Positions 4,363 to 14,647 of a DNA stretch of 64,000 nucleotides are shown here, piece after piece. The stretch comes from Phenylobacterium glaciei. Its GTDB lineage: Bacteria > Pseudomonadota > Alphaproteobacteria > Caulobacterales > Caulobacteraceae. Made by a program: the position numbers and the translations under genes. The notes under the pieces are model-generated. The model was not told the DNA's origin. It saw nothing but the letters and a program-made list of their open reading frames with translations, and searched no databases. Position 1 is the stretch's first letter, and each line of letters starts with the position of its first letter. The stretch spans positions 2,133,501 to 2,197,500 of the forward strand of contig NZ_JAGSGD010000001.1 of assembly GCF_016772415.1 (NCBI RefSeq), read 5' to 3'.

Positions 4363-4809
4363 ATGCGCCTCAGCACCAAAGGCCGATATGCCGTGATGGC
4401 CATGGCCGATCTCGCGCGCCGTCAGGGCTGCGGCGAAGACGGCGAACGGGCCGTCTCGCTGGCCGAGATCGCCGCCCGTCAGCAGATTTCGCTGTCCTAT
4501 CTGGAACAACTCTTCGCCCGCCTGCGCCGCCGTGGCCTGGTGAAGAGCTTGCGCGGTCCCGGCGGCGGCTACCTGCTGGCCGGCACGGCGGAGACCACGA
4601 GCATTGCCGATATCGTCATGGCCGTGGACGAACCCCTGCGCGCCACCCGCTGCTCCACCAAGAGCAAGGGCTGCATGCTGAAAGGCGAGCGTTGCCTGAC
4701 CCACGACCTGTGGGAAGAGATGGGCCGTCAGATCGAAGGCTACCTGGCCTCTGTCACCCTGGCCGACGTCGTCACCGGCCGCCTGGGCGCGGCGCGGGAG
4801 GCGGCATGA
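4363..4809 (+). CDS. iscR: Rrf2-family Fe-S responsive transcription regulator (IscR type)
   Basis: A 148-residue winged-helix regulator beginning MRLSTKGRYAVMAM, the standard Rrf2 N-terminus. The recognition region reads QQISLSYLEQLFARLRRRGLV (helix-turn-helix, residues 41-60), followed by the wing RGPGGGYLL. Three cysteines at 97, 104 and 111 with a His at 114 (CLTHDLW) match the 2Fe-2S ligands of IscR. The spacing here is C-x6-C-x6-C, where E. coli IscR has x5 in both gaps. As first gene of the suf operon, with an IscR-type half-site in its promoter, it most likely senses Fe-S status and controls its own operon. It overlaps the next gene by four bases. Confidence 0.93.
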   Translation: MRLSTKGRYAVMAMADLARRQGCGEDGERAVSLAEIAARQQISLSYLEQLFARLRRRGLVKSLRGPGGGYLLAGTAETTSIADIVMAVDEPLRATRCSTKSKGCMLKGERCLTHDLWEEMGRQIEGYLASVTLADVVTGRLGAAREAA

Positions 4810-11198: not shown

Positions 11199-11594
11199 AT
11201 GACCGATCTGAACGCCGCCCCCCGCGTCCGTCGCCCCCGCCCCAAGGTCGTCTCCCTGACCGACGCCGCCGCCGAGCGCGTGCGCGAGATCATGGGCCGC
11301 GCCGAGGTCCCCTATGCCGGCCTGCGGGTGGGCGTGAAGAACGGCGGCTGCGCCGGGTCCGAATACGTCATCGAGTATGCCGAGGCCGCAGCGCCCCTGG
11401 ACGAGGTGGTGGAGGACAAGGGCGTCACCATCCTGATCGACCCCAAGGCCGTGCTGTTCCTGATCGGCACAGAGATCGACTACGAGAAGACCAAGCTTTC
11501 GGCCAAGTTCACCTTCCGCAACCCCAACCAGACCGACGCCTGCGGCTGTGGCGAGAGCGTGACCATCGAACCGGGCAAGGTTCTCGACGCCTGA
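11199..11594 (+). CDS. sufA: A-type Fe-S carrier protein (SufA/HesB family)
   Basis: A 131-residue A-type carrier that receives Fe-S clusters from the scaffold and passes them to target proteins. The three ligand cysteines are present: C51 in NGGCAGSEY and C115 and C117 in DACGCGES. The ATG at 11199 gives MTDLNAAPRVRRPRPK followed by the conserved VVSLTDAAAERV. The first 15 residues are an extra basic lead. The stop codon lies in the loop of a small perfect hairpin (GACGCC 11586-11591, GGCGTC 11595-11600). This might weakly end the operon, but there is no T-run. Confidence 0.93.
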   Translation: MTDLNAAPRVRRPRPKVVSLTDAAAERVREIMGRAEVPYAGLRVGVKNGGCAGSEYVIEYAEAAAPLDEVVEDKGVTILIDPKAVLFLIGTEIDYEKTKLSAKFTFRNPNQTDACGCGESVTIEPGKVLDA

Positions 11595-11610
11595 GGCGTC
11601 GTCCCGTCCC

Positions 11611-11647
11611 ATAGCGTGGCTCTATGTTGTGGATCGGAACAATCGAT
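11611..11647 (+). promoter_or_regulatory. OxyR-type operator upstream of katG
   Basis: The sequence reads ATAG-N7-CTAT-N7-ATCG-N7-CGAT, exactly on the spacing of the OxyR consensus (ATAG-N7-CTAT repeated). The left two quarter-sites are perfect and the right two keep half of their bases, with dyad symmetry. It ends 95 bases before the katG ATG. OxyR control of katG is established in Caulobacter and many other bacteria; binding here is inferred from sequence. Confidence 0.72.
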
Positions 11648-11688
11648 TTCCCCAATCCATCAAAAGGGGTCTTTCTAGCGTCAGTTGA

Positions 11689-13908
<2,220 letters not shown>

Positions 13909-13915
13909 GCCCCAC

Positions 13916-13943
13916 GCGGCGGCGTCCAGCCGGACGCCGCCGC
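13916..13943 (+). terminator. katG terminator hairpin
   Basis: A perfect 12-bp stem (GCGGCGGCGTCC with GGACGCCGCCGC) and four-base loop start seven bases after the katG stop. The T-tract is weak (CTTG), but stem strength and position support termination. Confidence 0.6.
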
Positions 13944-14116
13944 TTGACGGCCTTCGCGGCTGTCCCTATTCGCAATCCCACGGTCCGCAGTTCACCGAGG
14001 CATCGCCGCCCGCAGGGGTTCGCTAAACCTGCTTAGACTTTGATCGACTGACACATCTCATCGTGCCAGATCGGAAGGGCGATCACCGTTCATCCCCGGC
14101 ACGCGAGGGATAGATC

Positions 14117-14647
14117 ATGTCGAGAACCGTCATTCCGTTGACGACGCGGGACGTCTCCAGCTTCGCCAAGGCCCTGCGCGCCCAACTGGTGGCCCGCGCC
14201 GCGGCGCCCAGTCACGTCGAACTGCTGAATATGCTGGCCCGCGCCGTGGGCCGCCGCAACTTTCAGGACCTGAGGGCGAATATGGACGAGACCTCTTCCC
14301 CGTCGGCGCCCGCGCCGCAGGAGACCGCTGACCTCGCCGTCGTGGAGCGCGTCGCCCGCTGCTTCGGCCCGGAAGGCCGCCTCACCCGCTGGCCCGCCAA
14401 GCGCGGCGACCAGGTCCTGGCGCTGTGGGTGCTGTGGTCCAAGCTGCCGCCTCGCGAGGAGTCCACTGAGCGCCAGATCAGCGACCAGCTGAAGACCCTG
14501 CACGACTTCGGCGACCACGCCTTGCTGCGCCGCGAGCTGATCGAGTCGGGGATGTTCTCCCGCACCTCCGACTGCCGCGCCTACCGCCGCATCGAACAGG
14601 CCCCGCCGATGACAGCGGTCGCCTTGATCGGCCGAGTTCAAGCGTAG
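14117..14647 (+). CDS. DUF2087 domain protein
   Basis: A 176-residue soluble protein. The C-terminal half (about residues 85-165) matches the DUF2087 pattern: LTRWPAKRGDQVLALWVLWSKL, then a TERQISDQLKTLHDFGDHALLRRELIESGMFSRTSDCRAYRRI stretch that resembles a small winged helix. The N-terminal part (residues 30-54, SHVELLNMLARAVGRRNFQDLR) resembles the short helical motif found beside some glyoxalase-superfamily proteins. DUF2087 has no firmly known role; nucleic-acid binding is a guess from the helical pattern. The 3' end overlaps the convergent glutathione transferase gene by 10 bases. Confidence 0.75.
   Translation: MSRTVIPLTTRDVSSFAKALRAQLVARAAAPSHVELLNMLARAVGRRNFQDLRANMDETSSPSAPAPQETADLAVVERVARCFGPEGRLTRWPAKRGDQVLALWVLWSKLPPREESTERQISDQLKTLHDFGDHALLRRELIESGMFSRTSDCRAYRRIEQAPPMTAVALIGRVQA

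Follow-up and report, generated by a model that had tools for sequence, protein, structure and literature searches.

The window analysed here, a stretch of 64,000 nucleotides from Phenylobacterium glaciei, carries katG at positions 11743-13908 of the forward strand, encoding a catalase-peroxidase of 721 amino acids (NCBIfam TIGR00198, 1140.5 bits; cut-off 770.25). Genes for an IscS/NifS-type desulfurase (below family cut-offs), SufB, SufC, SufD, SufS, a SUF-associated protein (TIGR02945) and a SufA/IscA-type protein are located upstream. The last of this isc-suf row, the SufA/IscA-type Fe-S assembly gene (11199-11594, forward strand, with the start codon assumed at 11199), ends 148 bp before katG, while an open reading frame ahead of the isc-suf genes (4363-4809) may encode an IscR-like protein. 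Downstream of katG, a 12-bp hairpin (GCGGCGGCGTCC/GGACGCCGCCGC, 13916-13943), a possible terminator, has no T run. Directly behind katG, a COG3860 RNA motif (Rfam RF02940, 64.5 bits; gathering threshold 42.5) was found at 13981-14034 on the forward strand, where it precedes a DUF2087 gene (PF09860; open reading frame 14117-14647).

The interval between sufA and katG contains a predicted OxyR operator (11611-11647, forward strand), recognized from its letters, pattern scans and shuffles, which reads in full ATAG-CGTGGCT-CTAT-GTTGTGG-ATCG-GAACAAT-CGAT. An earlier, sequence-only reading had described a near-complete OxyR operator at this place, and its letters, coordinates and 11-base spacing were exact on re-reading: the quarter-sites ATAG (11611-11614), CTAT (11622-11625), ATCG (11633-11636) and CGAT (11644-11647) start 11 bases apart, one helix turn per step. 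The OxyR consensus ATAG-N7-CTAT-N7-ATAG-N7-CTAT was matched at 14 of the 16 quarter-site bases. Both mismatches were symmetric (ATCG, CGAT) and located in the promoter-proximal half (ATCG-GAACAAT-CGAT, 11633-11647); the distal half (ATAG-N7-CTAT, 11611-11625) was perfect. The site is separated by 95 bases from katG, a peroxide-defence gene.

None of the shuffled versions of the 400 bp upstream of katG reached 14/16 (20,000 dinucleotide shuffles, one strand). When up to three mismatches were allowed, the pattern ATAG-N7-CTAT-N7-ATNG-N7-CNAT matched four places in the window versus 0.46 expected, and the sole mismatch-free match was the site at 11611-11647. The fuller OxyR quarter-site is given as ATAGnT in the available text of PMC5002191; the additional T was present at one of the four quarter-sites, and the site thus deviated from this longer form. 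Because OxyR sites are described as degenerate, as the title of a cited reference has it, this T was not treated as a strict requirement.

Promoter region and sufA-katG junction

Immediately behind the operator, TTCCCC (11648-11653, forward strand) is a probable -35 region, at whose position near relatives mostly carry TTTACC or TGTACC. A promoter-proximal half beside the -35 region would be what an OxyR activator site needs. A scan of positions 11500-11800 detected neither a sigma-70 consensus promoter nor, between sufA and katG, a canonical terminator. A 7-bp hairpin (CGACGCC-TGA-GGCGTCG, 11585-11601, forward strand), which lacks a T run, spans the sufA stop codon and is possibly a partial terminator; its counterpart in the sister genome (G132) also folds, using G-T pairs.

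This junction bears on an alternative in which katG is mainly expressed by read-through from isc-suf and the OxyR site contributes a minor peroxide response only. Such an arrangement is consistent with the location of sufA and katG on the same strand, 148 bp apart, and with a gap in which no canonical terminator was found. It was nevertheless considered unlikely, in view of the hairpin over the sufA stop codon and of the conservation of the operator core and the region behind it in relatives whose katG loci showed no suf gene upstream.

The oxyR gene and a second site upstream of ahpC

The absence of oxyR from the window, stated in the sequence-only reading, was borne out by the genome, in which 21 LysR-type matches (20 above cut-off) all lay outside the window. 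The search for oxyR elsewhere in the genome that it had suggested led to a gene downstream of ahpF (393951-394844; L014:1489-2385), encoding a protein of 298 amino acids that was assigned by the OxyR model, a PDB match and its cysteines. This protein topped the 14 genome matches to the NCBIfam OxyR model with 218.9-219.3 bits (runner-up, 59.7 bits). Its score was below the equivalog cut-off (329 bits), which was exceeded in just one of 14 control genomes, yet OxyR was its best family. The closest PDB match was also an OxyR (E 1.4e-55). The regulatory domain contains a cysteine pair, C201 and C210, within GHCLRDHVLSAC, which we take to correspond to C199 and C208 of the Escherichia coli protein. 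Identity was 97% to the OxyR of the sister genome and at most 83% to those of other members of the genus; the best value in genus g22, among the matches listed, was 76%.

OxyR (E up to 1e-60) was present in 193 of 199 genomes of the family, and a katG match in 121 of the 199. All but two of these katG-bearing genomes (119 of 121; exceptions G065 and G135) also encoded OxyR. Since genomes with OxyR outnumbered those with katG by 72 (193 versus 121), the presence of OxyR by itself says little. The distance between oxyR and katG was 100-270 bases in at least 19 genomes.

The relaxed pattern ATMG-N7-CKAT-N7-ATMG-N7-CKAT had a single exact match in the 4,242,328-base genome, namely the site before katG; with two mismatches, four more places were found, and the reversed control gave one per strand. 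A second OxyR-like site with a perfect ATAG-N7-CTAT half was identified by pattern search at G000:C1:391435-391471 (L177:1936-1972), ending 59 bases before ahpC (TIGR03137, 348.4 bits; cut-off 272). Behind this gene, ahpF (TIGR03140) comes next, and oxyR lies 192 bases beyond it. The pattern ATAG-N7-CTAT-N18-CRAT, which was composed once both sites were known and thus describes more than it tests, occurred at two places genome-wide, before katG and before ahpC, and at none in the reversed control. A looser version (CNAT end, one mismatch allowed) yielded four extra places, with two in the reversed control. At the start of oxyR itself, the best-scoring stretch reached only 9/16, and no site is claimed there.

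Another LysR-type regulator, recognizing the general T-N11-A motif, might read 11611-11647 in place of OxyR. The 20 LysR-type matches above cut-off supply candidates, and both halves of the site fit the general LysR motif as presented in the available text of PMC5002191. We regard this explanation as very improbable, because the only companion of the ATAG-N7-CTAT-N18-CRAT pattern precedes ahpC, two genes from oxyR, and because the remaining LysR proteins scored no higher than 59.7 bits with the OxyR model. Under the preferred assignment to OxyR, one shared pattern would tie katG and ahpC to a single regulator.

Sites upstream of katG in related genomes

Regions upstream of 70 katG genes of the family were scored. 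They were taken from the 121 katG-bearing genomes and comprised 30 loci and 40 regions, the rest being mostly lower-ranked, split or truncated at the end of a contig. Distances were counted from the first aligned katG residue, with start codons unchecked, and sites starting between -220 and -70 were scored. Sites of at least 12/16 were found upstream of 37 of the 70 genes, against 0.20 expected from 1400 shuffles; these upstream regions are related, so that the 37 are not independent events. Scores of at least 13/16 were reached in 22 of the 70 and 14/16 in three, including the window, and in none of the 1400 shuffles in either case. The remaining 33, among them the sister genome, scored below 12/16. 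That a chance match in a promoter, with no operator function, accounts for the pattern at 11611-11647 was judged extremely improbable: the 33 low-scoring relatives and the relatedness of the other 37 speak for it, and the shuffles of the katG upstream region, together with the excess of sites over expectation in the family, speak against it.

The sister genome carries ATCG-CGAT-ATCA-CGAT in the identical register (11/16). It differs from the window site at three of 16 quarter-site bases and eight of 21 spacer bases, while the third spacer, GAACAAT, is identical. Conservation by column was counted in 25 of the 30 near katG loci, one of which (L041) seems mis-anchored; these rows were picked for holding GAACAAT, whose seven columns are therefore conserved by choice. 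The CTAT of the distal half showed the commonest or consensus base in 21-24 of the 25 rows, the third quarter-site in 15-24 and the fourth, CAAT in most relatives, in 21-25. In the promoter-proximal half, near relatives mostly have ATAG or ATAA, followed by GAACAAT and CAAT. The letters of the outermost ATAG were matched in 12, 10, 8 and 22 of the 25 rows, respectively. Downstream of the site, the stretch TTTACCAAT was mostly kept in near relatives; the version in the window is TTCCCCAAT.

Of the four quarter-sites, the outermost ATAG thus varies most among near relatives, which retain CTAT, both promoter-proximal quarter-sites and the bases that follow them. Loss of the motif in close relatives, which the sequence-only reading had named as evidence against an operator, was accordingly seen for the outermost ATAG and not for the other three quarter-sites.

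Proposed regulation of katG and comparison with known systems

Spacing, position, near-uniqueness in the genome, the companion site before ahpC, an OxyR with two cysteines and the sites of relatives together support the interpretation of 11611-11647 as a probable OxyR operator. On these sequence-based grounds, we assign a probability of roughly 0.92 to the site being the katG operator of the cell's own OxyR, which, when oxidized by peroxide, would activate katG and also act at ahpC. In the proposed mechanism, peroxide would oxidize the C201-C210 pair, upon which OxyR would change its contacts and hold the promoter-proximal half beside the -35 region. Recruitment of RNA polymerase by OxyR would then increase katG transcription, and the same OxyR would act at the ahpC site. 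We infer oxidation, tetramer binding and activation at 11611-11647 from known OxyR biology. The katG site is very probably an ordinary switch of an already known kind; the results for this genome support a standard peroxide switch at katG and show which of its quarter-sites relatives keep.

A less ordinary feature is the position of katG behind the isc-suf genes. The genes for the TIGR02945 and SufA/IscA-type proteins precede katG in two of 110 loci (30 read with flanks of 1500 bases, and 80 named loci whose flanks were at most 3000 bases long, some shorter), those of the window and of the sister genome (L023). In a tree of 70 KatG proteins, built by a quick method and including 22 of the 28 members of the window's genus (six were left out), the katG genes of the window and the sister genome paired and adjoined a set of 20 from genus g22 (support for the 22 rows, 93), apart from 20 other katG genes of their own genus. 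This grouping would be explained by transfer, and also by the presence of two old copies of which one was lost. Tentatively, and with considerable doubt, it may be proposed that in the window species and its sister a katG gene with its OxyR operator came to sit behind isc-suf and thereby acquired a dual input, from isc-suf read-through (an iron- and Fe-S-responsive promoter) and from peroxide via OxyR. If true, gene position would rejoin two responses described as uncoupled in Caulobacter crescentus, for which the available text of PMC11475020 states that OxyR does not regulate isc-suf.

The four quarter-sites of the window site, at 11-base steps, resemble the OxyR sites of Escherichia coli as presented in the available text of PMC5002191. 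In contrast to the ATAGnT sites described there, the window site departs from the pattern at two of the 16 quarter-site bases and lacks the T at three of four positions. An OxyR-activated katG promoter is known from C. crescentus (Italiani et al., 2011, as cited in PMC5869019, PMC6120978 and PMC11475020). According to the parts of these papers that were available, OxyR binds upstream of the predicted -35 region of katG in this organism (PMC5869019) and activates katG upon exposure to peroxide (PMC6120978), and ahpCF is directly activated by OxyR (PMC11475020). The window resembles that system in having a predicted OxyR site upstream of katG, with katG and ahpCF as targets there. At its katG locus, Caulobacter hibisci (L148, katG 82% identical) carries CTAT-N7-ATAG-GAACAAT-CAATTTTACC. 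Unlike in the C. crescentus system, katG in the window is located behind isc-suf genes, and its site appears to differ in combining a promoter-proximal half of ATCG and CGAT with a perfect distal ATAG-N7-CTAT half.
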